Positions 1-21,033 of a stretch of DNA of 50,160 bases are shown one piece after another. Under the pieces are notes generated by a model, which was not told the origin of the DNA, ran no database searches, and saw only the letters and a program-made list of their open reading frames with translations. Made by a program: the position numbers and the translations under genes. The stretch spans positions 1 through 50,160 of the forward strand of contig JAJPZA010000233.1 of assembly GCA_021204625.1 (NCBI GenBank), written 5' to 3'. This stretch comes from Clostridia bacterium (GTDB lineage Bacteria > Bacillota > Clostridia > Christensenellales > Borkfalkiaceae). Position 1 is the stretch's first letter. Each line of letters begins with the position of its first letter.

Positions 1-2206
1 TCACGCCTGGTCCATAAAGTCCGGTGTATCCTGCCGCGAGGGTGTCTTCGGCAAGAGCCTCCCCCACCTTCTTTATGAGATCCTTGTTGAAAGATGAAGC
101 CCATATCCCTTCTGAGGGGAAGGACGTATTTGTTGTTGTGTTCATTATGCCGTTAGGGCCGTCATTGTCCTTGGTTGCAGGCTTGTTCACAGGAGCGCCA
201 AGTTCAACCGTTGAGTAAGCCCCGTTGGTCATAAGATAGGCCATATCTCCGAAAGTCAGCTCATCCAGAAGATCATCCCAGGCGTCATCGTCATATGGTA
301 TGGGATTTTCGTCTGTGGAGCGGAGCATTGCGAGAGACAGTCCGTTATCAGCACCGTATGTGGGCATTTCGGATCCGTCCTCAACAATATCCTTGTAGCT
401 GGCGATATCATCGGCCATTGTCTCGGTAATTGTGAAGGACACAGCCTTATCAGGCCATGTGCCTGTCCAGTTGCTGCGGGATACATATGTCACGGAATTG
501 TTTCCTGCCCCGTCATAGCTGTCCATGTCGCAGAAATCAAACTGGTTTGTTATCTTGTTTCCTGTCTCGGAAGCATAAGCGTAACTGGTCGTATCCAAGC
601 TAGGATTATTCCAGCTCTTTGCAAGGGAAGCGTCTCCGCTCACGGAATACCCGCTTGCGGAAAGGATATTGTTCAGAGCATCATGCGCGCTGTCCCCGCA
701 TGAGAAGTAGTAATCGCCTTCATCCATGATGTATGTCTTGGCGTTGTTGGAGTCATATTTGCGGAGCTCGGACTTGTCTATGGTCACGCTTACAGTCACT
801 TGTTCCAGCGGCTCCAGCTCATCCGTCTTCTCGAATCCGACAAGCTCAACAGCAGCTGTCTCAACTCCGTGCTGAATGTCATAATCCGTATACGGCTTCT
901 GAAGGTATACCTCCACGACCGCCTTGCCGGCAACATCTCCAATATTCATGACATCCACGGAGTATATGAACTCATCACCGTTCTCCACCAAGGATGCATT
1001 GGAATACATGAAGTCTGTGTATGAGAGACCGTATCCGAAAGGATATGCCACATCATCGTCGTAATTGTAATCTCCCACTCCATCACTGCCCATCACATAG
1101 TCTGCGTAGCGGGTTTCATAATAACGGTATCCCACATAGATACCTTCAACATATACGCCGTACACTCCATATACGGCCCTGGAATCTTCAGATTCGTAGT
1201 ACGAAGCGGCATTAGCGTATTCCTGCGAGAACTTCTTGTCCGGATTTGCGGCCCAGTTGGCCATGGCCGGAGATGAAAAATTGTCCTTGCAGTATGTGTC
1301 CGAAAGTTTTCCGGAAGGATTTACTTTTCCGCAAAGAACATCGTTTATGGCATACATGCCTGTGGAGCCGACATCGCCTACCCAAAGAACCGCATCTATG
1401 TCAATGCTGCTGTCGTACAGGAAATCAAGCTGGATTGGCACGGCCGAGTTGAGAATGACTATAGTCTTTTTGAACGTTCCGGACTTTTTGAGTGAGGTAA
1501 TGTTCTGCAGCGCTTCCTTCTCCTCTGCGGATATGGAAAGATAACTACCGTCCAGGCCGTCGCTTCCGGATGCGCTTATGTCCTGCCCTTCGCCGCTGTC
1601 ACGGGATATTACATAAATAGCTGCATCGCCGTAATCGGAGAATGAGTTCCTCACTGCGTCGGTATATACAACAGACCAGGGTGCCTCACTAATCTGGTAC
1701 ACAAGATTATACTTGTAACGTCTATAGCTTGAAGCTGCTCCAGAATTATACATATCCCACAGAGTGCCGTTTACCTTGAAATCCGAAAGGGCCTCCTTGA
1801 GCGTGGGAAATTTGGATGAATCTGCATTTGCAGAAGATCCGGATGCGCCGTAATTGAAACTTACAGACCCCTGGCCGAAAAGGCTTATGCTGCTTCCTGA
1901 ATCCAGGGGAAGGGCATCATTCTCATTGCGCATAAGCACAATGCCCTCAGACTCAATTTCCTGACAGACGCTGTCCTCGAAGTCCTGAAGCTCATCCTGA
2001 GTGGAGAACGCGCTCTTGAAGTATTCGGTGTCCTCATTCGAAGTATCTTCTCCCTTCACAATCTTGAAGGTCTTGCAGCCAAAGAAGTTATTCAAAACGG
2101 CAGCCTGGCTGTTGGCTATGCTTGTCACGGCAATGACAATGACAAGGAGGGAAACCATGGCCACAAGAAGCCTGCGCCAGAGTTTTATGGAAAATAATTT
2201 CTTCAT
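1..2206 (-). CDS. Membrane-anchored permuted GH3 glycosidase, cassette A (3' end beyond window)
   Basis: The reading frame opens at an ATG at 2206, with AGGAGG about 6 bases ahead that overlaps the stop of the preceding gene, and stays open to the window edge (735 codons seen). It starts MKKLFSIKLWRRLLVAMVSL, a basic stretch plus one membrane segment. A GH3_C domain follows (EGIVLMRNENDALPLD); its SRDSGEGQD motif holds the probable acid/base Glu206. Then come a Fn3-like domain and the start of the GH3_N barrel; the window cuts just after LYGPG, before the nucleophile. This C-domain-before-N-domain order is known from Ruminococcus albus and Butyrivibrio fibrisolvens beta-glucosidases. It is a paralogue of the gene ending at 11889, which has a second membrane segment at its C-terminus, so this copy probably does too. 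Likely substrate: beta-glucosides or related oligosaccharides outside the membrane (inferred). Confidence 0.9.
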   Translation of the reverse strand, partial: MKKLFSIKLWRRLLVAMVSLLVIVIAVTSIANSQAAVLNNFFGCKTFKIVKGEDTSNEDTEYFKSAFSTQDELQDFEDSVCQEIESEGIVLMRNENDALPLDSGSSISLFGQGSVSFNYGASGSSANADSSKFPTLKEALSDFKVNGTLWDMYNSGAASSYRRYKYNLVYQISEAPWSVVYTDAVRNSFSDYGDAAIYVISRDSGEGQDISASGSDGLDGSYLSISAEEKEALQNITSLKKSGTFKKTIVILNSAVPIQLDFLYDSSIDIDAVLWVGDVGSTGMYAINDVLCGKVNPSGKLSDTYCKDNFSSPAMANWAANPDKKFSQEYANAASYYESEDSRAVYGVYGVYVEGIYVGYRYYETRYADYVMGSDGVGDYNYDDDVAYPFGYGLSYTDFMYSNASLVENGDEFIYSVDVMNIGDVAGKAVVEVYLQKPYTDYDIQHGVETAAVELVGFEKTDELEPLEQVTVSVTIDKSELRKYDSNNAKTYIMDEGDYYFSCGDSAHDALNNILSASGYSVSGDASLAKSWNNPSLDTTSYAYASETGNKITNQFDFCDMDSYDGAGNNSVTYVSRSNWTGTWPDKAVSFTITETMADDIASYKDIVEDGSEMPTYGADNGLSLAMLRSTDENPIPYDDDAWDDLLDELTFGDMAYLMTNGAYSTVELGAPVNKPATKDNDGPNGIMNTTTNTSFPSEGIWASSFNKDLIKKVGEALAEDTLAAGYTGLYGPGV

Positions 2207-2216
2207 AATTCGCCTC

Positions 2217-2645
2217 CTATGCCTTCTTCACGCGCTCGCCGGCAAGATAATCTTTGGCGAGCACGGCTGAGGCGAACATAAGGGCTGCGGCAGCGATGCA
2301 AAGTATGAATGTCATTATGAACGATGCCGAGAAAGTTGTGCCGTCTATGCTCACAAACACGTTGGCAATGTAAGTGATTTCAACATATATATACTGAAGC
2401 AGCGCGAAAAGGTATACGGCATAAGCGGCGTACTTCAGAAGCTTCTCGCCAAGAACCGTGGAAGCCACATTGATGACAATGCCGACTATAAGTGCCGCTA
2501 TGAGTCCGTAATTCAGGTTTGGAGTGAATGCCGTGATGCCTGTCACGCAATAGAGTATTAGCGCGGCAATGCCGCAAACAAGGGCGATAAGCGAGATGTA
2601 CAGGCTTACGCCCCTGTTTTTAACAAATCCTTTAAAGTCTGCCAT
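2217..2645 (-). CDS. Four-helix membrane protein of unknown function, cassette A
   Basis: 142 residues with four hydrophobic segments, roughly at 13-35, 47-66, 73-95 and 105-130, and short polar ends (MADFKGFVKNRG at the start, GERVKKA at the end). I do not recognise a named family. It has a clear paralogue at 14921-15349; both share LILYC, the TP-LN motif before helix 2, and the E-I-x-YIAN and IDGT stretch between helices 3 and 4. In both cassettes it sits between the InlB-repeat lipoprotein and the membrane-anchored GH3 gene. Here the stop codon overlaps the ribosome binding site of the GH3 gene, which suggests coupled translation. A role as membrane partner or chaperone of the GH3 is inference from position only. 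Confidence 0.85.
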   Translation of the reverse strand: MADFKGFVKNRGVSLYISLIALVCGIAALILYCVTGITAFTPNLNYGLIAALIVGIVINVASTVLGEKLLKYAAYAVYLFALLQYIYVEITYIANVFVSIDGTTFSASFIMTFILCIAAAALMFASAVLAKDYLAGERVKKA

Positions 2646-2677: not shown

Positions 2678-4384
2678 CTAGCCCACATTGGAAGTCTTAG
2701 GAGTCCAGCTAAGGACAGCATCAGTGTACACATGGATGCAGTCTACAATCGGAGCAGTTGCGCTCATTGTGCCGGAATAATACGTAGAGTTGCTAACTTC
2801 AATCTTTATAGTGTTACTGCCTTCATTAAGATGTGCCTTTGTGGTCATAGTGACATTAGAAAACGTCCTTGCGGTATTTGACAAATCAGCATCTGAGCCA
2901 TAGCATGGAAAGGATTCATATGAAAGTTCCTGGTCATTCGCAAATACCTTCAAAACATCCGGGCTGAATGTCATGGGGTAGTATTCTGCGCCTATGGTAA
3001 TTGCGATAATGGCATCATCAACTTCAGTATCAGATTCTATGTCAAACTCAAGGTAAGCGCCATTATAGTACAAGTATGAAACATAATACCCATTGCTAGC
3101 CGAAGTTGAGCTTACAATCATTCCAGCTCCATTGGCACCGCCGGAATAGCCTTGGCCGAGCTTGCCATCCAAATCTGTGTACTCAGCCTCAAACGTATAA
3201 TCTGTGAACCACTTTGCATAGAGGCTGTAATCCTGCTTGACTCTCTGAGTATAGAACTCTTCTGTACAAGCTGCGTCAGTATACCAGCCGACAAAATAAT
3301 ATCCATCTCTTGAAGGAGAAACCGGACCTGTATAGCTGTTGTTATATTTATAAGTCTCAGTAAGATATACATTTGAAGGTGCTCCGTCATAATTATAATA
3401 GTATGTTATTGTGCACACATCAGAAGACTCACTCTCCCAGGAAGCCTCCAAAGTTATATCCTGCGTTACAGGGGTATTGAAATCATATTCAGCACCATCA
3501 AGCTGCCAGATGCAGATATACCCGCTGCGCTCTACCGCAGGCTCTGTGGCAGTGCCGCCGTATTCAACAGACTGAGAATCCACTGTCAGACCATCATAAT
3601 TAGTGTTGAATGTCACTGTAAGCACAGTTACAGTCCAGCCTGCGTAAAGGATGATGTCGCCTGTAGGAACAGACTCAAAATCATAAGAGGCCGTGCAGCT
3701 TGCATCTGTATACCAGCCAGAGAAATCATATCCCTCTCTCTCCGGATCTGTTTCAGGCTTGGCGAACGAATTGCCGGCATCTATATAAGATGCTTCCATC
3801 TCCTGAGCTCCGGTATAGTTAAGATTGTATGTTACCTCTATTGAGGTCTGCATCCATCCGGCATAAAGGGTGATATCTGCATTAATAACCGTATCAAAAT
3901 CAAATTTGTTGGAATCTGTGCATGCTGCATCCGTATACCAGCCGGTGAATTCATATCTCTCACGTTCAGGATCTTCAGGCGCTGTCGCTTTTCCGCCCAA
4001 AGCCACAGATTGGGTCCCTACGGCCGGCGCACCAACATAATTGTAGTTGAATGTGACAGTAGCTGAAGTGCTGGTCCATCCGGCATAAAGCACAAGATTC
4101 TGGGTCACAGGGGTCGAGAATACGTATTCGTTTCCTTCTGTGCAGTTCTTGTCCGTGTACCAGTCATCAAACTCATAGCCATCCCTTGACGGATCTGCAG
4201 GTTTGGCAACCGCGTCCCCGCTCTTTACCTGAACAGTTTCATTGGACGAGCCTGTGTAATTGTAGTTGAATATTACTGTATATGTGGTGTCGTCCACATC
4301 AACGTTGCCATCGCCGCAGGCTGCAAAAGCGAACGCAAACACCAGAACGGATGCCAGCAGCAATGACACTATCAGTTTCTTCAT
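2678..4384 (-). CDS. InlB-repeat lipoprotein with CBM6/35-like C-terminal domain, cassette A
   Basis: 568 residues. The start (MKKLIVSLLLASVL) is a signal peptide ending in a loose lipobox, FAAC, with Cys23 as the probable lipidation site. Five Listeria-Bacteroides repeats (Flg_new type) follow at about 34-103, 107-177, 180-250, 254-316 and 324-392. Each has the pattern VTFNYNY, a GY-F-GWYTD core and LYAGW; the fourth is the most diverged. From about 396 (YTFEAEYTDLDG) to the end lies a beta-rich region that starts like CBM6/35 carbohydrate-binding domains and ends in P-VDCI-VYT. The paralogue at 15401-16798 has the same plan with three repeats. Likely an outer-face glycan- or surface-binding protein; binding is inferred from the fold-like pattern. 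The ATG has TAGGAGGT sequence upstream, near 4390. Confidence 0.85.
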   Translation of the reverse strand: MKKLIVSLLLASVLVFAFAFAACGDGNVDVDDTTYTVIFNYNYTGSSNETVQVKSGDAVAKPADPSRDGYEFDDWYTDKNCTEGNEYVFSTPVTQNLVLYAGWTSTSATVTFNYNYVGAPAVGTQSVALGGKATAPEDPERERYEFTGWYTDAACTDSNKFDFDTVINADITLYAGWMQTSIEVTYNLNYTGAQEMEASYIDAGNSFAKPETDPEREGYDFSGWYTDASCTASYDFESVPTGDIILYAGWTVTVLTVTFNTNYDGLTVDSQSVEYGGTATEPAVERSGYICIWQLDGAEYDFNTPVTQDITLEASWESESSDVCTITYYYNYDGAPSNVYLTETYKYNNSYTGPVSPSRDGYYFVGWYTDAACTEEFYTQRVKQDYSLYAKWFTDYTFEAEYTDLDGKLGQGYSGGANGAGMIVSSTSASNGYYVSYLYYNGAYLEFDIESDTEVDDAIIAITIGAEYYPMTFSPDVLKVFANDQELSYESFPCYGSDADLSNTARTFSNVTMTTKAHLNEGSNTIKIEVSNSTYYSGTMSATAPIVDCIHVYTDAVLSWTPKTSNVG

Positions 4385-4610: not shown

Positions 4611-7600
4611 TTAATTCTTCTTCCTACCAAAGATGAATACAAGAATGCATCCGGCAACAGCGACAACCGCAACAACCAGTGCTATGATGCCTAATGTTGT
4701 TCCTGTGTTGCTGGATGTTCCATCTGCGCCATCCTTTCCGTCAACGCCATTAGTGCCGTTTGCTCCTGTTGCACCGTCCTTGCCATCTGCACCGTCCTTG
4801 CCATCTGCACCGACTACTACTCCGAGATTCTCTGTAGTGCCGTCTGAGTATGTGAGTACAAGTTCGCCGTCATCATTGATAGTAGCACTTACAAGATCTC
4901 CGTGACCTGCAGCTTCTTCGCTTCCGTCGCCTTCAATCGCAAGAGTGATGTCAACATAGTATCTGTCTGTTGTTGTAGATGAAGATGAAGAGCTCTGTGT
5001 TGTGTAAGATCCGGCAACCTCTACTGTTATATCGAATGTTCCGCTTTCAGTAGGCGTTCCGGAAATGATTCCGTTGTCCTCATCCAAAACAAGTCCTGCA
5101 GGCAGTGAACCGGAAGTAATAGCATACTCAAAGCCGTTGGTATATGTTCTAGTCGTAATAACGTCAGAATCTATATAGACATTGAGTGAGTCGCCGACAG
5201 TTCCGCTAACTGAAGTGAGTTCATTATAATTATCATCTGTTAAGGTGAATGCTGAAGCAATGTCGAATGTGACTCTTGAGGATGCCGTAATCCAGCCGTC
5301 TACAGTTGCCTGTACCGTTGCCGTATATGTTCCTGCAACAGTGGCAGTTCCGGTAATAGCGCCCGTGGTGGCGTTAAGGGAAAGGCCAGCAGGAAGTGAA
5401 CCGGATGTTATTGTATATACAGCGGTGCCGCCGTTAAGCGCATCTGCGTCCATTGCAACAGATGTATTTGCGCTTACGCCCTGGGTGATCTCTACAGTCT
5501 GGTCTGTGTAGGCAGATGCAGTCACTCCATTATTATTGTTTACAGAATTAGCGCATACATAGAGAACCTGCTGAGCGTCTACACGCATCGTGTACCACTG
5601 CATAAGGTTTGTATTATCACTACCAGTTCCAACATCCACGCATCCGCTGGGCTCTGCTTCTGTGCCTACACCTACGGCAGTGGCATCCCATGTGCCGGAT
5701 GCTCCGTATGTGCCGGATGCTGATCCGAGAGGCAGGTTGTTGCCGGCTCTGCCGAGGATATCCATATTGCGGTTGGAGTATGCAGACCACATGTCTGTGA
5801 CAACCATGCCTTCCCATCCCCACTCGCTTCTGAACAGTCCGTTGATCATGTTGTAATTGTAAAGGGTCTGTACAGAGCCTACACGGACGAATGCCGTCAT
5901 GCATGCGGTTGCCCCGCCTTCCTGGAATGCCATCTGGAACGGCTTTGCATACAGCTCACGGATAGCCTGCTCGTTTACCCATGCCATGTAGGTCTCGCCG
6001 CAACGGAATGACTCCTGTTCATTGAGGATGGCGTGCTTTACCCAGCAGTTCAGTCCTCTGGACTGTGCGCCGCCGACAACGGCCGCTGCAATGTATCCGC
6101 CCTGGATGCCGTCCTGGGAATAATACTCGTTGCATCTGCCGCCGAAAGGTGAACGGTGCGTGTTCATGCCGGGGCCGTACCAGCCGTCCTCATTGTTGAA
6201 TATTCCGAGGTTGGCGTTTACGATGCCCTCCTGTGTGGCAAGCTGCACGTTCCAGGTTGCTGCTATTGTAGGCTCATCCATCCAGGCCTTTCCAGCGTAA
6301 GTGTTGGGGCCATCGAGGTCGCTGGTCTGTTCCTTGCCGATTGAGCTTACGGCGGACGTGATGTACATTCCATTGTTGACGATGGTGAGAATCTCATCCC
6401 ACGTGAGCTGGTTCATGAATTCAGTCCACTTCTCATCATCATATGCAACGCCTGCCATGTCTGCCATTGTGATGTCATACATGCCGTTGTCACCAAGTAC
6501 GCCTGTGCCCTGTGTCCAGCCGTCCATGAGCGCTGTGAGCTCCTCAGTGGACTTGTACCATGCATAATGGCCGCTGTCAGACTTGTAATATGTGTAGCCT
6601 TCATCAGCATATTCTTCATTGCTGGAATTGTAGCTCTTCCACCATACTAAGTTCTTCACGAAATCATCAGTCAGAGTGCGGTCAGCCTCTGTCGGAGGTG
6701 CGGGGAATGTCGCAACCATGTCAGCACGGCTGAGGTCTACCATCTGAGCCTCGTCATCACTATTAATCTTGAGGAAGTCATAGCTCTCAGCATAACCATT
6801 TCCGGCAGAATGATCCATTCTTCTGGAATCATAAGTATCATCGTTGGAGAACCAGGTCTGGACTTCATTGCCGCTGAAATCATCCACTTTAAGAAGAGCT
6901 GTGTCTTCCAGAGTAAAGGACTTACTGTCCACTACAGTGTGGGAGTCTGTCATGACCTTGATGGTGTACTTGCCGGCGTCAAGAGTATATCCGCAGTATC
7001 CGTCATTGTTCTTGTCATCATAGTCGAATGATGCAAAATCCTGGACGTTGAATGTGACCTGCACGGTCTCGCTCTGGCCGGGCTTGAGATTGGAAGTCTT
7101 TGCATAGCCGACAAGGTTGACCTCTGCCTTCTCAATTTCTCCGGATGTGTAAGGCATGGACATGTAAACTTCAACAGTCTGCTTGCCGGAATAATTGCCT
7201 GTGTTGGTGACCTTGACATTGGCAGTCATGGAAGTAACGGCTGTCTTAAGATCTGCTGCTGTCTCTGTGGTGAGATCATCTGCCGTCAGGTCTTCAAGAG
7301 CAACACCGGTATTTGTTGTAACGCCGGTAAGTTCAATATCGAATGTAGAATAGGAAAGACCATAGCCGAACGGATAGGAAACGGCGCTCTCCCACCACTC
7401 TTCAGCTGTGCCTTTGTCTTCCTCTGCTACAGTTGTTTCTGTATCTGCAGCGCTTACAAGCGTGTCGTTAGTCTTGTCCCAAATGATTGAACCGCTCTCA
7501 AGCTCTGCATATACGGTCTCAATGTACTTGTAGCCGACGTAGATGTTCTCTTCGTAGTCAATGCCGTACAGGCCAGTGGATGAAGCGAAACCATTAACAT

Positions 7601-8561
7601 TGTCTGCCTCAGGGATGCCCAAAGAGCTATCATATAAATATGAGGCGTAAGTGCCAACCTGGGAATTATCTCCGAAGTTGTACCATGTAGGGTCTTCTGT
7701 CAGGTCACGGTACCATTCATCGACAAGCCTTCCGGAAGGGTTGATAGTGCCATCAAGAATCTGTGCAAGAGCAGCTATGCCGGTTGAGCCGGGACGGCCC
7801 ATCATGATCATGGCGTTGATGTTTTTATCATCCTTGAGACTTCCTATCTCAATGACGTTAGAAGTGTTGAGAACAACAACCACCTTGCTGAAATTGGCTT
7901 CAACATAAGCAATGAGATCTTCCTCGCTCTCTGTAAGCTCAAGGTAATGCTTGTATTCATTGCCATCTGCATCCTGGTATAATGCCTTGTGAGCAGCAAC
8001 ATCTTTGCCGAGGTAATCATTGTCTTCTACTTCACTCGTCACAGTGCTTACATCGCTGCCCTCGCCGCCGGTTCGGGACAGGATAATAACTGCAGCGTCA
8101 TTGTAAAGGCTGAAAGACTGCTGAACGCTGGATCCGAAATCCATGGTTTCAGTGCCGATTGTTGTTCCTACGCTTCCGTAGTAATCCTCAAGGGCGCTGT
8201 TGACTTTGAATCCCTCATCACGCAAAGCCTCCGTAAGAGTGGCACTGCCGTCACCGCCGACAAAAGAATCCTGCGCAACGCCGAAAACGCTGACCTTGGA
8301 TGCCTTTGTCATGGGAAGCAGGCCGTCATTCTTCAAAAGGACCATGCCTTCGCCGGAAATCTCTGTATTGAGTTCATCCGCAGCATCCATCGCCTCATCA
8401 TAGGATGAATAGTCCGTATAGAACTTTCCGTTGGCGCTCAGAGTCAGGGCAGAAGCACTCAGTGCAGGAGATGTCATAGCGCTTGCGCAAAGAACGGAAA
8501 GCACAGCGACAACGCCTAGCACCTTGATGCCGGTTTTTGCCTTTCTAGACAACTTGACCAT
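4611..8561 (-). CDS. Giant secreted permuted GH3 glycosidase with He_PIG domains, collagen-like tract and C-terminal anchor, cassette A
   Basis: 1316 residues from the ATG at 8561, chosen over an ATG 18 bases upstream because AAGGAGG lies 5 bases before it. A signal peptide ends near residue 39. GH3_C spans about 65-285 and holds GGEGSD with probable acid/base Glu167. A Fn3-like domain follows at about 445-545. The GH3_N barrel runs about 750-1000: WYGPGMNTHRSPFGGR, WVKH, and MVVTDMWS with probable nucleophile Asp923. Two Ig-like He_PIG domains (SGSLPAGL motifs) lie near 1050-1105 and 1145-1205, then about ten G-x-y triplets (GADGKDG type) at 1252-1283. One membrane helix with a GRKKN tail ends the protein. 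No LPxTG is seen, so anchoring is through the helix. The domain order is circularly permuted relative to most GH3 enzymes. First gene of cassette A. Confidence 0.93.
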   Translation of the reverse strand: MVKLSRKAKTGIKVLGVVAVLSVLCASAMTSPALSASALTLSANGKFYTDYSSYDEAMDAADELNTEISGEGMVLLKNDGLLPMTKASKVSVFGVAQDSFVGGDGSATLTEALRDEGFKVNSALEDYYGSVGTTIGTETMDFGSSVQQSFSLYNDAAVIILSRTGGEGSDVSTVTSEVEDNDYLGKDVAAHKALYQDADGNEYKHYLELTESEEDLIAYVEANFSKVVVVLNTSNVIEIGSLKDDKNINAMIMMGRPGSTGIAALAQILDGTINPSGRLVDEWYRDLTEDPTWYNFGDNSQVGTYASYLYDSSLGIPEADNVNGFASSTGLYGIDYEENIYVGYKYIETVYAELESGSIIWDKTNDTLVSAADTETTVAEEDKGTAEEWWESAVSYPFGYGLSYSTFDIELTGVTTNTGVALEDLTADDLTTETAADLKTAVTSMTANVKVTNTGNYSGKQTVEVYMSMPYTSGEIEKAEVNLVGYAKTSNLKPGQSETVQVTFNVQDFASFDYDDKNNDGYCGYTLDAGKYTIKVMTDSHTVVDSKSFTLEDTALLKVDDFSGNEVQTWFSNDDTYDSRRMDHSAGNGYAESYDFLKINSDDEAQMVDLSRADMVATFPAPPTEADRTLTDDFVKNLVWWKSYNSSNEEYADEGYTYYKSDSGHYAWYKSTEELTALMDGWTQGTGVLGDNGMYDITMADMAGVAYDDEKWTEFMNQLTWDEILTIVNNGMYITSAVSSIGKEQTSDLDGPNTYAGKAWMDEPTIAATWNVQLATQEGIVNANLGIFNNEDGWYGPGMNTHRSPFGGRCNEYYSQDGIQGGYIAAAVVGGAQSRGLNCWVKHAILNEQESFRCGETYMAWVNEQAIRELYAKPFQMAFQEGGATACMTAFVRVGSVQTLYNYNMINGLFRSEWGWEGMVVTDMWSAYSNRNMDILGRAGNNLPLGSASGTYGASGTWDATAVGVGTEAEPSGCVDVGTGSDNTNLMQWYTMRVDAQQVLYVCANSVNNNNGVTASAYTDQTVEITQGVSANTSVAMDADALNGGTAVYTITSGSLPAGLSLNATTGAITGTATVAGTYTATVQATVDGWITASSRVTFDIASAFTLTDDNYNELTSVSGTVGDSLNVYIDSDVITTRTYTNGFEYAITSGSLPAGLVLDEDNGIISGTPTESGTFDITVEVAGSYTTQSSSSSSTTTDRYYVDITLAIEGDGSEEAAGHGDLVSATINDDGELVLTYSDGTTENLGVVVGADGKDGADGKDGATGANGTNGVDGKDGADGTSSNTGTTLGIIALVVAVVAVAGCILVFIFGRKKN

Positions 8562-10420: not shown

Positions 10421-10621
10421 GACTCCCATGCATGAAGGCCGCACCAACTGTCCATGCGGTTTCAGCGCATGCGTCTTCCACTCCTGTTCATTGCAACTAA
10501 ACCGTGTTCATTATAACCAAAGGCCACATGCCTTTTCCCATCTTAGGCACATGCGGGCCACTGCCTGCAAACAGCCGTCCAAAACGGCATATGCGACACT
10601 GTTTTTCCCACATACGGCAAA

Positions 10622-11888: not shown

Positions 11889-14800
11889 TCATCCGGATTC
11901 ATCCGGAGAGTTTCCGGTGTCTTTCCTGTGCCTTAGCACTTCCGCTACAACGTATACGGCAGCAGAGCCGACGGTTAGAACTATGGCTATGACCTCAAGA
12001 GTTGTGAGAAGAATCTGCCACCAAGGTGTTACGGGAACGAGCTTTGTATTGGAAGAGTATCCGTTCATGGCCGCGCTGAAGTTGCAGACCACATACAGGA
12101 TTCTGTGGGTGGCCTCCCGCATCATCCGGCAGAAACGGGGGCTGTTCCTGAATCCGTCCAAAGCTGTGTCTGAGCCAGAGCCGTCATACAGGCAGGTGCC
12201 GGCCATGATGCCGTCATAGTAGGTCATGTAATATGCGCCGTTGCCGGACGCCATGTCTGTGATATAGAATCCGTCAAATCCGAACTCTTCGCGGCAGATG
12301 CCGGTCAGAAGATTGTAATCTCCTGATGTCCATGTGCATCCCGCGCGGTTGAAGGATGTCATTGCCGCGTGGGCGTTGCCCATTGAAGGCCTCATGCTGT
12401 ACTCGAAAGGCAGCAGATATATCTCACGGGCGGACTGCTCATTGAGCCACACTCCCACTCCGCTTCTGTAAGTCTCACACTCGTTGAATGCGACATGCTT
12501 TACGTATGCAACCACTCCCCGGTCCTGGATGCCTTTGATTTCGGCAACGGAAGCCATTCCGGAAAGATACGGGTCTTCCGAGAAATACTCGTGGGCCCTG
12601 CCGCAGAAAGGAGTCCTGTGTATGTTGGCTCCGGGAGCGTAAAGCCCCTGGACGCCGGCCATTATGGAATCATCCCCCATGAGGCTGCCTATGCGCTCTA
12701 TGAGCTCATCATTGAATGAAGCGGCCCATATTCCCTCGCTGGGCATGCAGTATCCTGTAACAGAGCCTGTGACGCTTGTAGGCCCGTTGTTGTCTCCCGT
12801 CTGGGGTTTTGCGACACTTGTCACCGCATTGGTAAGATGCAGGCCGTCCGTAATGAGCCTGGACTGCTCTGCGAAAGTCGTCTGGTCCAGAAGCCGGTCC
12901 CATACGCCGTCATCATAATCATAGCCCCTGAGCATTATGAGGGTCATCCCGTTGGATGCGCCGTATGCGGGCATTGCATATCCGGCCTCATCCGTGTCCG
13001 CCTGGCTGGCGTCCGTCACGCTCTGCAGATCCTTCTGCATGGTTTCGGTTGCAATGGACAGGGTTATGGCACTTTCGGGCCATGTGCCGGACCAGTTGCT
13101 TCTGGAAACGTATGTCACGCTGTTCGTGCCGGAGCCTTCGTATCTGTTCACGTCCGCATTGTCCAGCCGGTTGGTGATTTTCACGCCGGTCTCTGCGGAC
13201 TTGGCATATATTGCTGTGTCTGTATCTTCCTGGGTGAGCACATCCTCTGCAAGGTCCTTGCGGCCCTCCGCATCCATCCTTCCGGAAGTATTGCCAGGCG
13301 CATAGCCTTTTGCCGCAAGGATGTTGTTGACTGCGTCATGGGCGTCCTTTGCCGCTGTGAGATAATAATCCCCCTTGTCCAAAATGTATGTCTCTGCCTT
13401 GCTGCTGTCATATGACTTGAACTGTTCCTTGTCCACGGTTATGGTGACGGTTTCGGAATCGCCCTCTTCGCCTTTTGCCGCAAGAGTTCCTGTTTTTGCA
13501 TATCCTGCAAGCTCCACGGATGCCTTCTCCACGCCGTTCTCTTTGTCATATTCTGAGTAAGGCTTCTGGAGGTATATCTGCACGACCTCCCTGCCGGGAA
13601 CCGGACTGTTGTTGGAAACGGTTACGGATACGTCCAAGATGCCGGAATCCTCTTCGTTTTCCGTTGCCGTGAAATTGCTGTATGAGAAGTCCGAGTATGA
13701 AAGGCCGTATCCGAAGGGATACGCCACGTCTGCGCCGTAATCATACGCGCCGGTGCCGTACGAGCCCATAACATAGTCTTCGTATCTCGTCTCATAATAC
13801 CTGTACCCTACATAAATGCCCTCTGCATACACTTCATAGTACTGGCTGGTTGAATTTATGAACGGGAAGTCATTATAGTTGGAATATGCCTGGGCCACGC
13901 TGCCGCTCAGTTTTCCGTTCGGGGAAAGGCTGTTCATCCAGTTGGCCATGGCCGGGGACGAGAAGTTGTTTTTGGCGAATGTGTCCGCCGCTCTTCCGGA
14001 CGGATTGACGTCTCCGACAAGAACTTCGCCTATAGCTTCCGCGCCGTGCGAGCCCGTGACGCCTGTCCAAAGGCATGCATCCACGTCTATACCTGAGCCG
14101 GCTTCCGTTGCGGAATCCAGGAAATCCAGCTGGATTCCGACGGCTGAGTTGAGAAGAACGATGATGCGGCTGAACACGCCCTGGCTCTTGAGTTTTGTAA
14201 GGTTCCGGAGAAGATCCTGCTCATTTGCGGAAATGGAAAGATAGCTGCCGTCCAAGCCGTCCGACCCTTTAGTAGCCATGTCCGATCCCTCGCCGCTCTC
14301 TCTGGTAATCGTGACTATTGCTGCGTCTCCGTACTGGCTGAAACTGCTTTCCAATCCGCTCAAAGCGCTGTACGGAGCCTCGTTGATTTTTGTGGTTGAT
14401 TTGCTGTGGCCGTAGCTGGACGTGTATGCGCTGCTCCGGTAAAAATCCCAGAGAGCGCCGTTCACATCGAGCCTCTGCCTGCCGTCTGCGCCTTTTTTCT
14501 CCAAGGCTTCTTTGAGCGTAGCGTATGTGCCCACATTGGACGGCGTGGAAGAGCCGGATGTGTAATAATAGAAATCCCCTGACCCGCTGCCGAAAAGGGA
14601 TACTTTGGACCCTCTGTCCAGGGGAAGGGCGCCTCCCTCATTCTTTAGAAGGACGATGCCCTCTTCCTCTGTCTCACGGCAGAGGCTTTCATATGCGGCC
14701 CTAAGCTCTTCCTCCGTCCCGTATGTCTGCTTGAAATACTCCGTGTCTTCCTCCGGGGCGTCCGGATCCGGCTCCCTCTCCTCCACACGGTAATTCTGCG

Positions 14801-14924
14801 TGTTGAAGAAGGAATTGATCATGGACGCGTTCTGCGAGCCGGCCACGGAAAGGGCCAGCATGACCGCAAGGAATGATGTGGAGCATATGAGAAATATCTC
14901 GCCGAATCTGGTTGACAATTTCAT
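11889..14924 (-). CDS. Membrane-anchored permuted GH3 glycosidase, cassette B (complete)
   Basis: 1011 residues from the ATG at 14924, which overlaps the stop of the four-helix gene as ATGA; GGGGAG lies 8 bases ahead. The longer frame starts inside that gene. One membrane helix at about 8-30 (FLICSTSFLAVMLALSVAG), then an acidic linker. GH3_C at about 85-315 holds ESGEGSD with probable acid/base Glu212. A Fn3-like domain lies at 425-525. The GH3_N barrel covers about 700-900: LYAPGANIHRTPFCGR, VAYVKH and FYITDMASG with probable nucleophile Asp890. A second helix at about 955-980 begins TPWWQILLTTLEVIAIV and is followed by HRK. Both ends should face the cytoplasm with the enzyme outside. Last gene of cassette B. 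Confidence 0.93.
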   Translation of the reverse strand: MKLSTRFGEIFLICSTSFLAVMLALSVAGSQNASMINSFFNTQNYRVEEREPDPDAPEEDTEYFKQTYGTEEELRAAYESLCRETEEEGIVLLKNEGGALPLDRGSKVSLFGSGSGDFYYYTSGSSTPSNVGTYATLKEALEKKGADGRQRLDVNGALWDFYRSSAYTSSYGHSKSTTKINEAPYSALSGLESSFSQYGDAAIVTITRESGEGSDMATKGSDGLDGSYLSISANEQDLLRNLTKLKSQGVFSRIIVLLNSAVGIQLDFLDSATEAGSGIDVDACLWTGVTGSHGAEAIGEVLVGDVNPSGRAADTFAKNNFSSPAMANWMNSLSPNGKLSGSVAQAYSNYNDFPFINSTSQYYEVYAEGIYVGYRYYETRYEDYVMGSYGTGAYDYGADVAYPFGYGLSYSDFSYSNFTATENEEDSGILDVSVTVSNNSPVPGREVVQIYLQKPYSEYDKENGVEKASVELAGYAKTGTLAAKGEEGDSETVTITVDKEQFKSYDSSKAETYILDKGDYYLTAAKDAHDAVNNILAAKGYAPGNTSGRMDAEGRKDLAEDVLTQEDTDTAIYAKSAETGVKITNRLDNADVNRYEGSGTNSVTYVSRSNWSGTWPESAITLSIATETMQKDLQSVTDASQADTDEAGYAMPAYGASNGMTLIMLRGYDYDDGVWDRLLDQTTFAEQSRLITDGLHLTNAVTSVAKPQTGDNNGPTSVTGSVTGYCMPSEGIWAASFNDELIERIGSLMGDDSIMAGVQGLYAPGANIHRTPFCGRAHEYFSEDPYLSGMASVAEIKGIQDRGVVAYVKHVAFNECETYRSGVGVWLNEQSAREIYLLPFEYSMRPSMGNAHAAMTSFNRAGCTWTSGDYNLLTGICREEFGFDGFYITDMASGNGAYYMTYYDGIMAGTCLYDGSGSDTALDGFRNSPRFCRMMREATHRILYVVCNFSAAMNGYSSNTKLVPVTPWWQILLTTLEVIAIVLTVGSAAVYVVAEVLRHRKDTGNSPDESG

Positions 14925-15349
14925 GACAGCATCTCCCCTGGCTTTCTGAAGCCGGTCTTCATCATGCAGGCTGACACAAGGGAAAGCACCCATGCGGCCA
15001 GTCCGAATATGAGAGTGAGCACGAATCCCGCGGTGACGGAAGTGCCGTCTATGGCAGCGATGAGGTTGGCTATGTAGTTGATTTCAAAAACTACGTACAT
15101 GAGGAAAGCATAAAGCCCCACGGCCGCCGTTATGGCTTTCACGGCGCGGATCTCATATATGCACATGGCAAGCGACAGGATGATGAATATGGCATATGCC
15201 GCCGTGATGGCCGGATTGAGCGTTGGCGTGAATTCGGACACCCCCGCCGTGCAGTAAAGGATAAGGGAAACTGTCCCGCAGACGAAGGCGCCCGCCATGA
15301 GATAGTACCCCGCTCCCTTGCTCTTGAAAAATTTCTTTAAAAATTCCAT
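14921..15349 (-). CDS. Four-helix membrane protein of unknown function, cassette B
   Basis: 142 residues, the same length as its paralogue at 2217-2645. Four hydrophobic segments at about 15-35, 46-65, 72-93 and 105-128, with a basic start (MEFLKKFFKSKG). Shared signatures are VCG-x-x-SLILYC, the FTP-TLNP motif, and FEINYIANLI-x-x-IDGT. The stop overlaps the start of the GH3 gene (ATGA), a strong sign of translational coupling and of matched dosage. No family name can be given. The same position in both cassettes supports a shared job with the membrane-anchored GH3. Confidence 0.87.
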   Translation of the reverse strand: MEFLKKFFKSKGAGYYLMAGAFVCGTVSLILYCTAGVSEFTPTLNPAITAAYAIFIILSLAMCIYEIRAVKAITAAVGLYAFLMYVVFEINYIANLIAAIDGTSVTAGFVLTLIFGLAAWVLSLVSACMMKTGFRKPGEMLS

Positions 15350-15400: not shown

Positions 15401-16798
15401 TTATGACTGATAGATCACCTGTGAAAGGCCTGAAGATGCCGTTGAGTATATTGTGATGCAGTCCAGGTTGGGGCTCTTTGCGGTGGTCTGGCCTCCCTCT
15501 GACTTGTAAGATGCGTCGGAGGTCGTCAGAAGCATGATGTAGTTTGTTCCCGCACTCAGCGATATGCCGCCGATTGAGTAAGTCAGGAATGTGCAGGGCA
15601 CATTGAGATCGTTGATTGTGAGCCCCGACACGTCAAACATCATCGTGTCGTATCTCAAGGGCGTTCCTTCATGTTCCGCCGGGTCCTCGCCGTCCGCCAG
15701 ATCATTTTCACTGAACACCGTAATCTGATACTGGCTGCTGGATATCGAAACGGATCCTATGGAGTCTCCGTCATAACAGGTTGACTCTTTTGTCGAATAA
15801 GCGTAGTTCGTGGAAGCAGTAATTGTGAGGTATGCGTCCGGCACATCTGTGGCGCATGTCACTTCAAATATCAGATACTTTCCGGCCTGGTTTCCGGCCT
15901 GGACATATTTGCCGTTGCTGCAGGATGAATTTTCCAGAATGGCGCCGGCGCCGACGTAATTGTTTGAATAGCCGAAGAACTCACGGTCCATGCCGTACTC
16001 GTCTGTCAAATCGGTGTACTCGGCCTCCATGACGTATCCGTAATACCATGACGCGTAGACAGTAATATTGTCTCCGCCGACATAGCTGCCGTATACAATC
16101 TGGTCTCCTGTTCCGTCGTCGTTTGCATGCCATCCCATGAACCTGTAGCCCTCGCGCACAGGCGTCGGCACATCAAAAATCTTGTCATAAGCCTCGGCGT
16201 AGCCGACATGGTATGTGCTGCCGCTTCCGTCATTTGTCATGAAGAACACAGCGATGTTTCCTTCCGGTATGTCAAGGCTGGTCCATCCTGCATAAATGGT
16301 CAGATCATATGTGACGGGCGCGGAAAGGTCAAAGGCCACGGTGCATTCCTCGTCGGCATACCACCCGGAAAAAATGGCATTGTCCTTTGAAGGGGTCTCT
16401 AAAGATATGGTCTCTCCGCTGTTTACGGCATATGTTAAGATGTTTCCGTCAATATTCACCGTCACCGTGCAAGATATGACTGTTTTCTCCCAGCCGGCGT
16501 AATATGTGGCATCCGCCGTTATGACGGATGTGAAATCCACAGGCAGCGTGCATGAGGATGTCGTATACCAATTGTCAAACGCATAGCCGTCGCGCACAGG
16601 GTCCGCGGGCCTTGAGGCAGCCTTCCCCTCTTCCACAGTCTGCACCGCGTATATTGAGGCGCCTGCGTAGTTGCAGTCGAAAGTCACTGTATAGGTTTTT
16701 GTTTCAGGGGTGTTTTCCCCGCAGCCCGCGGCAGCAAAGGCGCATGCCAGAACGCACACAGCTGCGCAGGCTATGATTCCCCTGGTAATTTTTTTCAT
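15401..16798 (-). CDS. InlB-repeat lipoprotein with CBM6/35-like C-terminal domain, cassette B
   Basis: 465 residues from the ATG at 16798 (AGGAG about 10 bases upstream); a longer frame adds 14 residues without a site. The start MKKITRGIIACAAVCVLACA is a signal peptide with lipobox AAGC, Cys26. Three Listeria-Bacteroides repeats at about 35-103, 109-172 and 181-251 (GY-F-NWYT, IFSGWYADEE, YRFMGWHAND). From about 256 (YVMEAEYTDLTDEYG) a beta-rich CBM6/35-like domain runs to the end and finishes PNLDCITIYS, like PIVDCIHVYT in the cassette A paralogue. Probably holds glycan or a cell-surface target for the neighbouring GH3 enzymes; this is inference. Confidence 0.85.
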   Translation of the reverse strand: MKKITRGIIACAAVCVLACAFAAAGCGENTPETKTYTVTFDCNYAGASIYAVQTVEEGKAASRPADPVRDGYAFDNWYTTSSCTLPVDFTSVITADATYYAGWEKTVISCTVTVNIDGNILTYAVNSGETISLETPSKDNAIFSGWYADEECTVAFDLSAPVTYDLTIYAGWTSLDIPEGNIAVFFMTNDGSGSTYHVGYAEAYDKIFDVPTPVREGYRFMGWHANDDGTGDQIVYGSYVGGDNITVYASWYYGYVMEAEYTDLTDEYGMDREFFGYSNNYVGAGAILENSSCSNGKYVQAGNQAGKYLIFEVTCATDVPDAYLTITASTNYAYSTKESTCYDGDSIGSVSISSSQYQITVFSENDLADGEDPAEHEGTPLRYDTMMFDVSGLTINDLNVPCTFLTYSIGGISLSAGTNYIMLLTTSDASYKSEGGQTTAKSPNLDCITIYSTASSGLSQVIYQS

Positions 16799-16845
16799 GG
16801 ATATCAATCTCCTATGATTATGTCCGGAACGTGCGGCCATTATGC

Positions 16846-16962: not shown

Positions 16963-19900
16963 TCAGGACTTCTTGCGAAGAAGAACAATGACTATGCCGG
17001 CCGCCGCAGCAACAACCGCAACTATGGCGATTACAAGCCCGGCAACTGCAATCCCGTTGCCGGAGCCGGATCCCGTTGTCTCATCCGCGCCGGTGCCGGT
17101 GCCTGCAGGAATTGTCACTGAATTGGTTCCGTCCGTAATGGTGACGCTGCCGTCACTGTCCTTGGCAAGCGTCACGCTGCTTCCTGCGGATGAAGCTGAA
17201 GGAATCGTGACTGATGTCGTGCCGTCCGAAATGACAGTGCTGCCGCTCGCGTCTGTGGTTATGGTTACGCCGCCTGCGGAATCTGATCCGGATGATGCGA
17301 TTGTTATTGTTTCAACTGTGCCGTCCGTAAGTGTGATGACGAGATTGCCGTCGGCGTCAGCATATATGCTCTCCACCGTTGCGGATGCCGCAGGGCCTTC
17401 TTCCGACGCGCCGCTTACTGTGATGGTGTACGTCATATAGAAAGTCTCAGAGGCGACATCAAAATATACGGAAGCATCCATGCCCATTGCCGATACCATG
17501 ATGTAAAGAACGTTGGGATCCGTGGAGCCGAATATGGACTCGAAGGAATCATACATGGCAAGCCCTGCATCTGTGAAAACATGATTCGTCTCGTCCACAG
17601 CGTCAACGGCAACCGTGAATGTATATGTTCCTGTTGTTGCGGCGGTTCCGGTTATGCGGCCGTTTCCGTTCATCTCAAGGCCGGCCGGAAGAGCACCGTC
17701 AACTATTGACATTGTGTAGCTTGAATTATAGGAAGTTGCGGCTGTGTCGTACTCCACATATGCGTTCACGCTGTCGCCGACAGTAAGTGACGATATGGAT
17801 TCGCCTGTCACGCGGTCCGCGCCTACGGTCACGATAGGGTCAATATTGATTGTGAGGTCAAGTTCGATCTTCACCCAGCCGTCAATAAGGACATTGAGAA
17901 CGATATCGTATCCGCCTTCGCTCAGCGGAGTTCCGGAAATATAGCCGTTGTCAAATGTGAGCCCTGTGGGAAGCGACCCGGAAACCAGTTCTGAGAAGAA
18001 ACTGTATCCTGCATCTTCGCTGACATACTTTTCAGGAATCACAAGCTCGTTCATGTATGTGCCCTGAGTGCCGTTCAGGGCCACTTTCATGGAAGTGTCC
18101 GTGACGCCGTTGTTGTTTCCGGCGCTGTTCGCCTCGTTGTACAGAAGCCTGGTCACTGCCATTCTCGCGCAGTACCACTGCGTAGGGCTGTATGCATTAT
18201 CAGATCCTACAACCACGCCGCCGTATACCGTCAGGTCTCCGCTGTTTTCGCCCTGCCCTTCATATACTCTTGCGACAGAGGAATCCCATGTTCCGGAAAG
18301 CGCCTTTGAACCGGAAATCTTGTTGCCGCCGGCATCTGTTGTGCTGTATGTTGAGAATGTAAGATTTCCGTCAGGGATTTCAGCCCCGGCGCGGACAAGA
18401 CCGTCAACGGTCATGGAAGGCATGCCGGAATAGATGTCTGTGATTATGAATCCGTTCCAGCCCCATTCGCCGCGTGTTATTCCCTGGATGAGGGCATAGT
18501 TCTGTCCGGCATACACGGCGCCGATTCTGTTGAATGCGCTCATTGCAGCATGAGCGTCGCCTTCCTGCATAGCCATCTGGAATATCTTGAGATAGTTCTC
18601 GCGGATGTTCTGCTCTGTTGCGTTGACTCCGCCGGAGCCGCTGAGCCCGCTCACGTCATAAAGAGCAAAATGCTTTACATATACGTTGATTCCGGTCTCT
18701 GTCGCTCCCTTCACGACGGCCGCTGCTATGAAGCCGCCCTGGATGGCGTCCTGGGAATAGTATTCGGGAGATCTGCCGGAGAACGCGCTGCGGTGAATGT
18801 TCATTCCGGGGCCATACCAGCCTGACAGACCCTGGGCAAGAAGCGTATTGCCTGCAAGGTATCCGTAGCGTGCGGCAAGGTCCGTATTCCAGGTAGCTGC
18901 CACCGTAGGCTCGCCTACCCATGTCGTAAGGTTGTAGGAATAGTTGGGTCCGTTGTCATCCAGCGTCTTCATTTTCCCGATTGTGGGCACAGCCACTGTG
19001 AGATGCGACCCGTTGTTCAGCAGCGAAGCAATTTCATCCCAGGTGAGCTGATTGATGAACTCCACCCAGTCCGAGCTGATGTTGCCTTTTGCGTCATACA
19101 GATCAACGCCGGCCATGTCATCCAGCGTAATGTCATATGTGCCGTCTTTGCCGACAGTGCCGCTGCCCTGTGTCCAGTCTGAAGGTATGTCCTCTTCCGT
19201 CTTGCACCAGACGTACTGGGAATCGTCTATAATGTCACCGTCCACATACTGGTATTTGGCAATCGTAGAGGAAAGAGTGGAAATTCCGCTGGAATCCAGA
19301 TCAAGATCATCCAGCAGGGCAGAAGGCTTCGTTCCGTCAAAGTCTGAACGGGAAAGCGTGGTCTCCATTGTTCCTGCAAGGTCAGATACAAGCCTGCTGT
19401 TGAAATCGTCATCATTCGAAAACTCATTGCTGATCTGGTTCCCGGAGAAATCATCCACGCGAAGCTCTGCGTCTTCATCAAGATTGAATGTGGCGGAAGC
19501 ATATGCCTTGTTGTCCTCTTTCATATTCAGGTATGAAGAGGATTCCATCACATGAACCGTATAATCTCCAGAATCGAGCAGATAAGCGCCGTTCCCGCCA
19601 TTTGCGTCTGTGCTGTAAGAGGCAAAATCCTGGACATTGAAGGTTATGTCAAGGGTCTCCTCTCCGCCGGGCCTCAGAGTATCCGTCTTGCCGTACCCTA
19701 CAAGCGTCACGTAAGATTTCTCCGCATCTCCGCTCTCATAAGGAGCCGTCACGTATATCTCCACTACTTCCTTGCCGGCGAAATCCCCGGTGTTCTTCAC
19801 GGTGACTTCAGCCGTCATGGATGTGATTGCAGTCTTCAGATCATCTTTTGAAGATGTCTCAACGTCCGCGGATGATATGCTGGCCCCCACTGCCTTTCCG

Positions 19901-21033
19901 AAGTTGTCCTTCAGGCTGTCCAGCGTGATGCTGAAATCCGTGTATGAGAGGCCGTATCCGAAGGGATACACCACATTGTTCCTGTACCAGGCGTCCGCCC
20001 TGGCTGAATCATCCGATTCATCATAAGTTACGCCGGATAAGGCTGACCCCACGGAAAGCGCATTGCCCTGGCTTGCCTCATACCTGTATGTCTCATAATA
20101 CTTGTAGCCGAGGTATATGTCCTCTTCGTAATCCAGGCCGATGTATGAAGTGCCTGTGTATTTGGATCCGAATGTGTTTGCGTATGTGGGGTCATTCGTA
20201 AAATCGTTGGTCCACTCGTCCACTGTCTTTCCTGAAGGGTTGAGTTTGCCGCTTAAAATCCGGCCCACAGCGGAAATGCCTCCGTCTCCGAGCCTTCCGA
20301 TCCAGGCAATGGCATTGATTTTGGAGTCTTTGTTCAGATTGCCCATCTCGAAGACATTGCTGGAGCTGTACAGCACGATGACCTTCTTGCAGGTTTCTTC
20401 CGCAAGGGCTATCATATTCTGCTCCGAGGCGGTGAGTTCAAGCTCGTGCTTGTCAGTATTTCCGGCCTCGTGAGACCAGCCCTGGCTGCCGTCAAGATAA
20501 TTCTCGTCCTCTTTTTCTCCGGTATCGAGGGAACGGTCGCTGGACTCTCCCGCTGTTCCTCTTGCAATGACAACGATGGCCGCATCGTTGTATGCTCTGA
20601 TGGACTGCTTCTGCTGGGATGAGAGAACTGTTTCCTTGCCGAAATCCGACTTTGATGCATTGTCATTGTCATAGAGCTCTTTGAGTGTGGGATTAACCTT
20701 GAATCCGGCATCCGCCAGGCTCTCTGTGATGCTTCCGTCAGTTTCGCTCATGCAATCCTGCGCCAAACCCAGAACACTGACTCTGGCTCCGGAATTCAAA
20801 GGAAGGGTTCCGTCATTCTTCAGCAGGGTGACGCCTTCCGAAGCGAGTTCCTCATTCAGTTCCCTGCCCGCAGCCAGAATCTGGTCCGTTGACGTGTAAT
20901 CCGTATAGAACCGTCCGTTTGCGGAAGTGTCCGCCGCCTGGGCAAAGATGGTTGACGTTCCAAGGCATACGGCCAGCAGCGCGCACGCCGCCACTGTTGC
21001 AGCCAAGGTAAGTTTTTTAGCAGTTGTCTTCAC
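16963..21033 (-). CDS. Giant secreted permuted GH3 glycosidase with He_PIG domains and C-terminal anchor, cassette B
   Basis: 1356 residues from a GTG at 21033 (AGGAGG 8 bases upstream). The signal peptide ends near AQA-ADT, about residue 33; the mature start SANGRFYTDY matches SANGKFYTDY in the cassette A paralogue. GH3_C at about 60-275 has the altered motif AGESSD (probable acid/base Glu163). The Fn3-like domain is at 400-500. The GH3_N barrel at about 690-950 shows WYGPGMNIHRSAFSGR, VKHFALYDVSG and FIITDIYSG with probable nucleophile Asp866. The stretch after the KH pair lacks the N-E-Q-E motif of the paralogue. Two He_PIG domains (SGSLPTGL, DGALPAGL) lie in the C-terminal third, followed by a Ser/Thr/Gly-rich linker with VTITDGT-type repeats instead of the collagen-like tract, then one helix and LLRKKS. 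Confidence 0.93.
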   Translation of the reverse strand: MKTTAKKLTLAATVAACALLAVCLGTSTIFAQAADTSANGRFYTDYTSTDQILAAGRELNEELASEGVTLLKNDGTLPLNSGARVSVLGLAQDCMSETDGSITESLADAGFKVNPTLKELYDNDNASKSDFGKETVLSSQQKQSIRAYNDAAIVVIARGTAGESSDRSLDTGEKEDENYLDGSQGWSHEAGNTDKHELELTASEQNMIALAEETCKKVIVLYSSSNVFEMGNLNKDSKINAIAWIGRLGDGGISAVGRILSGKLNPSGKTVDEWTNDFTNDPTYANTFGSKYTGTSYIGLDYEEDIYLGYKYYETYRYEASQGNALSVGSALSGVTYDESDDSARADAWYRNNVVYPFGYGLSYTDFSITLDSLKDNFGKAVGASISSADVETSSKDDLKTAITSMTAEVTVKNTGDFAGKEVVEIYVTAPYESGDAEKSYVTLVGYGKTDTLRPGGEETLDITFNVQDFASYSTDANGGNGAYLLDSGDYTVHVMESSSYLNMKEDNKAYASATFNLDEDAELRVDDFSGNQISNEFSNDDDFNSRLVSDLAGTMETTLSRSDFDGTKPSALLDDLDLDSSGISTLSSTIAKYQYVDGDIIDDSQYVWCKTEEDIPSDWTQGSGTVGKDGTYDITLDDMAGVDLYDAKGNISSDWVEFINQLTWDEIASLLNNGSHLTVAVPTIGKMKTLDDNGPNYSYNLTTWVGEPTVAATWNTDLAARYGYLAGNTLLAQGLSGWYGPGMNIHRSAFSGRSPEYYSQDAIQGGFIAAAVVKGATETGINVYVKHFALYDVSGLSGSGGVNATEQNIRENYLKIFQMAMQEGDAHAAMSAFNRIGAVYAGQNYALIQGITRGEWGWNGFIITDIYSGMPSMTVDGLVRAGAEIPDGNLTFSTYSTTDAGGNKISGSKALSGTWDSSVARVYEGQGENSGDLTVYGGVVVGSDNAYSPTQWYCARMAVTRLLYNEANSAGNNNGVTDTSMKVALNGTQGTYMNELVIPEKYVSEDAGYSFFSELVSGSLPTGLTFDNGYISGTPLSEGGYDIVLNVLIDGWVKIELDLTINIDPIVTVGADRVTGESISSLTVGDSVNAYVEYDTAATSYNSSYTMSIVDGALPAGLEMNGNGRITGTAATTGTYTFTVAVDAVDETNHVFTDAGLAMYDSFESIFGSTDPNVLYIMVSAMGMDASVYFDVASETFYMTYTITVSGASEEGPAASATVESIYADADGNLVITLTDGTVETITIASSGSDSAGGVTITTDASGSTVISDGTTSVTIPSASSAGSSVTLAKDSDGSVTITDGTNSVTIPAGTGTGADETTGSGSGNGIAVAGLVIAIVAVVAAAAGIVIVLLRKKS

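Follow-up and report, generated by a model that had tools for sequence, protein, structure and literature searches.

The window, a 50,160-nucleotide stretch of DNA starting at base 1 of contig JAJPZA010000233.1 (C4) of a gut-type Clostridia bacterium (Christensenellales, Borkfalkiaceae; GCA_021204625.1; 2.84 Mb in 233 contigs, 94% complete, 5.35% contaminated), carries two cassettes, A and B, of genes for glycoside hydrolases of family GH3 and their putative partners. Both lie entirely on the minus strand and share the order giant GH3, lipoprotein, small protein with four transmembrane segments (4-TM protein) and membrane GH3 (Table 1). Open reading frames (ORFs) and Pfam matches thereby confirmed the initial annotation, which had described four gene types occurring twice in matching order and strand. 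Two items between the cassettes were additional to that annotation, namely a LytTR response regulator gene and a partial, decayed copy of the cassette A membrane GH3 gene (its 3' end), which aligned with the latter in two pieces (70% and 79% identical) and, at the DNA level, over 673 bp (74%). In cassette A, an ATG at 14924, the likely start of the membrane GH3, overlaps the stop codon of the 4-TM gene as ATGA. The membrane GH3 of cassette B is incomplete, as the window starts at base 1 of the contig.

Table 1. Genes and features of cassettes A and B and of the interval between them (window coordinates).
Feature	Position	Strand	Description
Cassette A giant GH3	16963..21033	-	1356 aa; PF01915 68-310, PF14310 422-499, PF00933 710-871; hydrophobic segment near each end
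Cassette A lipoprotein	15401..16840	-	479 aa; signal with Cys, 3 Flg_new (InlB-type) repeats, C-terminal domain resembling carbohydrate-binding modules (CBM) 35/6
Cassette A 4-TM protein	14921..15349	-	142 aa; no Pfam family; AlphaFold2 predicted local distance difference test (pLDDT) 90.6
Cassette A membrane GH3	11889..14924	-	Permuted; hydrophobic segment near each end; listed ORF 14993-11889, 1034 aa
LytTR response regulator	10701..11495	-	Between cassettes; no kinase adjoining
Decayed 3'-end copy of cassette A membrane GH3	about 9672..10440	-	Pieces, one in-frame stop
Cassette B giant GH3	4611..8579	-	1322 aa; two He_PIG stretches, collagen-like linker, hydrophobic segment near each end
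Cassette B lipoprotein	2678..4384	-	568 aa; 5 Flg_new repeats; CBM35/6-like C-terminal domain, modelled part 2681-3217
Cassette B 4-TM protein	2217..2645	-	142 aa
Cassette B membrane GH3	1..2206	-	735 aa visible; cut by contig start

Identities between A and B over the aligned parts were 45% for the giant GH3s, 36% for the lipoproteins, 40% for the 4-TM proteins and 52% for the membrane GH3s. The initial proposal that the paralogues had diverged in repeat number, linker type and active-site motifs held on all three counts, with three Flg_new stretches against five in the lipoproteins, giant GH3 B alone having two He_PIG stretches and, below the threshold, a collagen-like match, and two active-site positions differing between the giants. 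An 18-bp tandem repeat (2.4 exact copies, 4770-4812) lies within the part of giant GH3 B coding for the collagen-like linker.

The 142-aa 4-TM proteins had no match at E 0.1 in either Pfam or NCBIfam. A profile of 11 members (A1) found 15 places in the source genome, 14 of them convincing, and matched at E <=0.01 in 22 of 61 genomes, weak matches included. Thirteen of the 14 convincing genes adjoined a GH3 gene and the other lay at a contig end. Forty stretches, comprising all listed A1 matches except 14 weak rows, were studied. Of the 58 4-TM ORFs then available, 54 were located within 300 bp of a GH3 gene with permuted domain order on the same strand; two of the exceptions were at contig ends in loci L016 and L029, and the other two were halves of a single L029 gene split by a frame break. 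The weak rows comprised one true member overlapping a GH3 gene (L157) and 13 places away from GH3 that did not score as members, while a class-wide sample of 391 genomes added five 4-TM ORFs in four genomes besides the source genome, all five adjoining GH3. Pooled, 60 of 64 4-TM ORFs had a permuted GH3 gene within 300 bp on the same strand (54/58, 5/5 and 1/1), the rest being contig ends or the one frame-split gene, so that the family does not occur mostly away from permuted GH3 genes, the outcome named beforehand as refuting the cassette. In a set of 80 loci picked by GH3 similarity alone, many of them cut short, a recognisable 4-TM gene was present in 21 (22 genes, 20 on the GH3 strand and two divergent, in L082 and L083). 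All 72 GH3/4-TM pairs with long enough proteins had gaps of <=20 bp, many of them overlapping, with the 4-TM gene after the GH3 gene in 51 and before it in 21. The broader finding of the analysis is thus an unnamed 4-TM family tied to one class of GH3; no mention of this family or of the four-gene cassette was found in the open-licence literature searched. The frame-split gene of L029 (3053-3746, genome G025) lies near an AraC-like regulator gene, identified by eye, with no GH3 remaining, as if the partner had decayed once the enzyme was lost.

The two families also vary together. Tree distances of the 4-TM proteins and of their GH3s were correlated over the 72 pairs (r = 0.71) and over the 11 pairs of the source genome (r = 0.83), values reached by none of 2000 permutations in either case; the latter correlation cannot be explained by species history, as all its pairs lie within one genome. 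GH3 and 4-TM parts are joined in a single chain in L128 (4-TM at the C end, E 5e-14) and, less clearly, in L074. The short ends of the GH3 anchors would be expected inside the cell, and from this the two fusions would imply an inside location for both ends of the 4-TM protein. No column reached 90% identity among 52 4-TM sequences (alignment A3 omits the L013, L040, L068 and L023 members, the L029 frame-split pieces and ORFs of <=100 aa or with E >1e-4). The predicted structure was a confident four-helix bundle (pLDDT 90.6), with which a structural search gave no telling match. Fusion, co-variation, the absence of a 90% column and the modelled bundle together suggest a structural partner of the GH3 and not a carrier whose binding site is fixed. 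It is very unlikely that the 4-TM protein is a carrier or flippase moving the freed sugar or a lipid-linked glycan and so coupling cutting to uptake, even though its four transmembrane helices and about 135-180 aa match small carriers of the multidrug or GtrA type in size, and GtrA-like proteins adjoin anchored GH3s in other lineages.

GtrA/DPMS proteins (PF04138) resemble the 4-TM family in being small multi-transmembrane proteins encoded beside GH3s in other Bacillota. A comparison of the 4-TM family with six GtrA-like proteins gave a probability of kinship of 0.5%, so that no homology to PF04138 was detectable, and PF04138 was not among the best 25 families listed. In L113, L127, L134, L142, L144 and L147, all from other lineages, a small GtrA-like multi-transmembrane gene comes after a GH3 gene whose product has about 785-815 aa; in four of these loci (L113, L142, L144 and L147) it sits between this GH3 and an anchored one. 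Three such genes were checked against Pfam, of which two scored above the cut-off and one just below. Besides the 4-TM gene, GH3 genes therefore have another type of small membrane-protein gene at their side.

The source genome contained 30 matches to PF00933, read as about 25 genes plus the decayed copy, three of these genes being of classic length and unanchored; 20 stretches around these matches were taken for study. The permuted order (GH3 C domain, Fn3, barrel) was recovered by Pfam in both giants and in membrane GH3 A, and partly in the cut membrane GH3 B. NCBIfam matches of the window GH3s fell far under the family cut-offs, and the best PDB sequence match of giant GH3 A was 5k6l, presumably GlyA1. 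A simple hydropathy rule detected hydrophobic segments at both ends of all 21 non-edge GH3s of >=900 aa in the stretches of the source genome. The nucleophile and acid/base residues are kept in both giants and in membrane GH3 A. Across 173 GH3 rows of >=840 aa, a few unanchored ones included and columns being mapped by motif and alignments, the nucleophile was Asp in 168 (four gaps, one Cys), the acid/base residue Glu in 169 (three gaps, one Val), and the conserved Arg, Lys and His were kept in 173, 172 and 172 rows, respectively. As the catalytic residues are kept, these GH3s are probably active surface exo-glycosidases. The DGP-motif Asp, which we take to be the -1 subsite Asp, was Asp in 109 rows, Asn in 55 and Glu in 6, and this variation may reflect varied sugars. 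Residue roles were assigned by comparison with 2x40 and with GlyA1 (PMC5104943), a member of a permuted GH3 subfamily with the same order of sandwich domain, Fn3 and barrel, whose catalytic Asp and Glu match those found here. Neither "transmembrane" nor "anchor" appears in the text of that paper (PMC5104943), whereas hydrophobic segments occur here at both ends; and, unlike GlyA1 as described there, the present enzymes have an adjoining 4-TM gene and a CBM-like lipoprotein gene. One GH3 of the source genome (L015, 7961-11224, contig C179) lacks four conserved residues (Lys, His, the second Arg and the nucleophile Asp), and its sequence marks it as a likely pseudo-enzyme among active paralogues. 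Permuted GH3s of 1727-2003 aa, with lengthy additional parts, were encoded in L092 (6935-12118), L101 (3909-9920) and L135 (6866-12055).

The four-gene order, whose co-occurrence the initial annotation had proposed to score, recurred in ten loci outside the source bin. Eight of these (L035, L044, L053, L054, L055, L056, L058 and L061) belong to six genomes of the genus, with L056, L058 and L061 coming from a single genome; the others are L069, from a chicken metagenome-assembled genome (MAG), and L070, from a MAG labelled Bacillales, where the hydropathy rule gave only one of four anchors and no lipobox was found. A further contig of the source bin (C114, L023) also has this order and a likewise cut end. 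In a FastTree phylogeny of 56 GH3s, the 13 giant GH3s formed one clade and the 13 membrane GH3s another, with corresponding inner groups (A with L035 and L044; B with L023; L056 with L058) and matching nesting of L070, L061, L069, L055, L054 and L053. The joining of these groups differed between the two clades: the B group joined the group of A in the giant clade (support 94) and the L070 group in the membrane clade (support 82). The order in ten outside loci and the matching giant and membrane groups show a unit inherited whole, which is old and travels together, A and B being old paralogues. The term "tandem duplicated" in the initial annotation, taken as a recent local copy, did not stand, for the tree set A with cassettes of other genomes and B with C114. 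The C114 copy of cassette B was 90% identical in the membrane GH3 (730 columns) and 70% in the giant GH3, and represents either a strain variant within the bin or a third cassette. This copy (genome G000) stops at about the same point as the window contig.

The last ~180 residues of the lipoprotein recur at the corresponding place in these cassettes. For cassette B, AlphaFold2 predicted a beta sandwich (pLDDT 91.2) whose best structural matches were CBM35 and CBM6 modules and which conformed to a beta-sandwich fold; the likeness to these modules thus lies in the predicted fold, the difference being the lack of a Pfam CBM match in either window lipoprotein. A protein with a homologous domain in L026 matched CBM_6 at 1.2e-8, and L025 and L026, both GH3 loci of the source genome, carry CBM-like lipoprotein genes in place of 4-TM genes. 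The initial guess of glycan binding is consistent with this CBM35-like model. The expectation that the lipoprotein family would also stand beside permuted GH3s was borne out in part, adjacency being weaker: of 38 ORFs with the CBM-like domain in the 37 genomes searched, at least 23 had a known permuted GH3 no more than 5 kb away. The CBM-like domain is tied to GH3 less strictly than the 4-TM family.

The distribution of LytTR regulators was compared with that of GH3. Nine of the ten LytTR domains of the source genome fell on GH3 stretches. Across 37 genomes of the genus, GH3 and LytTR counts were strongly correlated (Spearman 0.91), with 3 to 11 LytTR per genome in the 16 genomes with >=6 GH3 matches and 0 to 2 in the 21 with fewer. 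LytTR regulators were present in 49 of the 80 GH3-selected loci, and in 25 of the 32 of >=16 kb. Among the GH3s listed in the genus, 41 of 71 of permuted length had a LytTR gene within 8 kb, compared to 9 of 55 of classic length (Fisher p = 3e-6; 7 of 133 GH3 rows, with frames shorter than 500 aa or of 900-930 aa, were left out). Pfam confirmed the LytTR domain in 54 of 54 ORFs and a GHKL domain in 51 of 52 kinase matches (38/38 and 13/14); the kinase alignment (A7) had left out 14 of the 52, some because they were cut or oddly long and others for no stated reason, of which 13 later proved to have the GHKL domain. The link itself is already known, since a 2010 study of Butyrivibrio proteoclasticus (PMC2914790) reports that a secreted GH3 with a transmembrane helix at its C end lies near each of three LytTR regulators; here it is extended from a one-line observation to many genomes. 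Strain B316 shares with the present loci the linkage of LytTR regulator and secreted GH3; the words "transmembrane" and "GtrA" are absent from the text of that study, and its LytTR section contains no 4-TM partner, CBM lipoprotein or four-gene cassette (PMC2914790).

The enrichment of LytTR beside GH3s of permuted length, together with its tracking of GH3 number over the 37 genomes, would also suit a sensory role, in which the anchored GH3 and the 4-TM protein form a glycan co-receptor signalling to the GHKL kinase and hydrolysis mainly ends or shapes the signal. Also in favour of this, seven kinases of the source genome have 3 to 7 hydrophobic segments ahead of the kinase part, so that no separate outside sensor domain is obvious. 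It appears unlikely nonetheless, as 4-TM genes are likewise present where LytTR is absent (20/40), L016 and L018 carry AraC-like and L019 LuxR-type regulators as judged by eye, the catalytic residues are kept as for an enzyme, and the window contains no kinase for either cassette.

Pfam annotation of ten proteins on the right flank identified a pyrophosphatase, a cytidylate kinase, an SRP54-type GTPase, SMC, RNase III, a fatty-acid synthesis protein, a RecF/SMC-type protein, GidA, a DUF308 protein and a predicted AAA-ATPase. No transporter was found among these ten, the left side lying beyond the contig start, and no SusC/SusD pair had a Pfam match among the ten window proteins and the ten flanking ones. 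The cassettes resemble Gram-positive polysaccharide utilization loci (gpPULs), as defined in PMC5320581, in combining a putative polysaccharide-degrading enzyme and a regulator in one locus, and gpPUL Ros-7 has a kinase along with its LytTR regulator. The window contains GH3 genes and one LytTR regulator gene, polysaccharide degradation being only predicted; a gpPUL also requires a transport system (PMC5320581), and none was recognised beside these cassettes among the ten proteins of the one side scanned.

The lack of a sugar transporter among those ten proteins, and the two predicted anchors keeping catalytic domains near the membrane (21/21 non-edge GH3s of >=900 aa), could also be accounted for if the doubly anchored GH3s cut the cell's own envelope glycans, such as wall polymers or glycolipids; LytTR systems, moreover, often control envelope genes. 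This explanation is improbable, since the presence of about 24 permuted GH3s in a single genome (C114 carrying two), the 109/55/6 split of Asp, Asn and Glu and the CBM35-like partners better suit varied outside substrates, and since 21 of the 37 genus genomes have <6 GH3 matches, from which the GH3 set is not essential for the envelope.

Taken as a whole, these observations are best explained, with a probability of about 0.6, by each cassette encoding a cell-surface exo-glycosidase unit with the 4-TM protein as its dedicated membrane subunit. The two GH3s, with their predicted double anchors and conserved catalytic residues, would be fixed in the membrane by both ends, their catalytic domains facing outward, and would hydrolyse glycans there. 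The lipoprotein, through its confidently modelled CBM35/6-like domain on a stalk of InlB repeats, would grip the glycan. The 4-TM protein, given its adjacency, co-variation and natural fusion with GH3, would pack against the two anchor helices of the neighbouring GH3 and assemble or stabilise it. In many related loci the GHKL kinase and the linked LytTR regulator would turn on the unit, which is conserved in order and inherited as one, and the freed sugars would be imported by transporters encoded elsewhere.

Several observations pull in the other direction. No recognisable 4-TM gene was present in 59 of the 80 GH3-selected loci, many of these cut short, or for the GH3s of the source genome in L012, L014, L015, L021, L022, L025 and L026; with so many loci lacking one, this GH3 class does not always need a 4-TM protein. 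The second fusion (L074, 4-TM at the N end) is weak (E 0.0028), and the window lipoproteins had no Pfam CBM match at E 0.1. Not every GH3 copy is an enzyme either, as L015 has lost its Lys, His and nucleophile. Concerning regulation, 30 of the 71 listed permuted-length GH3s of the genus had no LytTR within 8 kb, at least 40 of the 120 LytTR genes of the genus were within 8 kb of a listed permuted GH3, and cassettes A and B are accompanied in the window by the regulator only.

A wider proposal, possible but rather doubtful, is that the 4-TM protein is the membrane subunit of an undescribed class of glycosidase complex, built of two GH3 anchor helices and four further helices, in which cleavage at the face of the membrane would be linked to the passing on of the product or of a glycoside bound to the membrane. 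Such a class would occur in gut Bacillota and some Actinomycetota, and one genus would have multiplied it to about twenty differently regulated copies per genome.

On the sequence evidence, the conserved cassette of putative surface glycosidases is real. It raises the question of why a glycosidase should have two anchors plus its own small membrane protein. In Gram-positive bacteria of the gut, surface glycosidases have been mapped poorly in comparison with the loci of Bacteroides, and a dedicated membrane partner marking one enzyme class would provide a gene-level handle for finding and sorting many unstudied loci.

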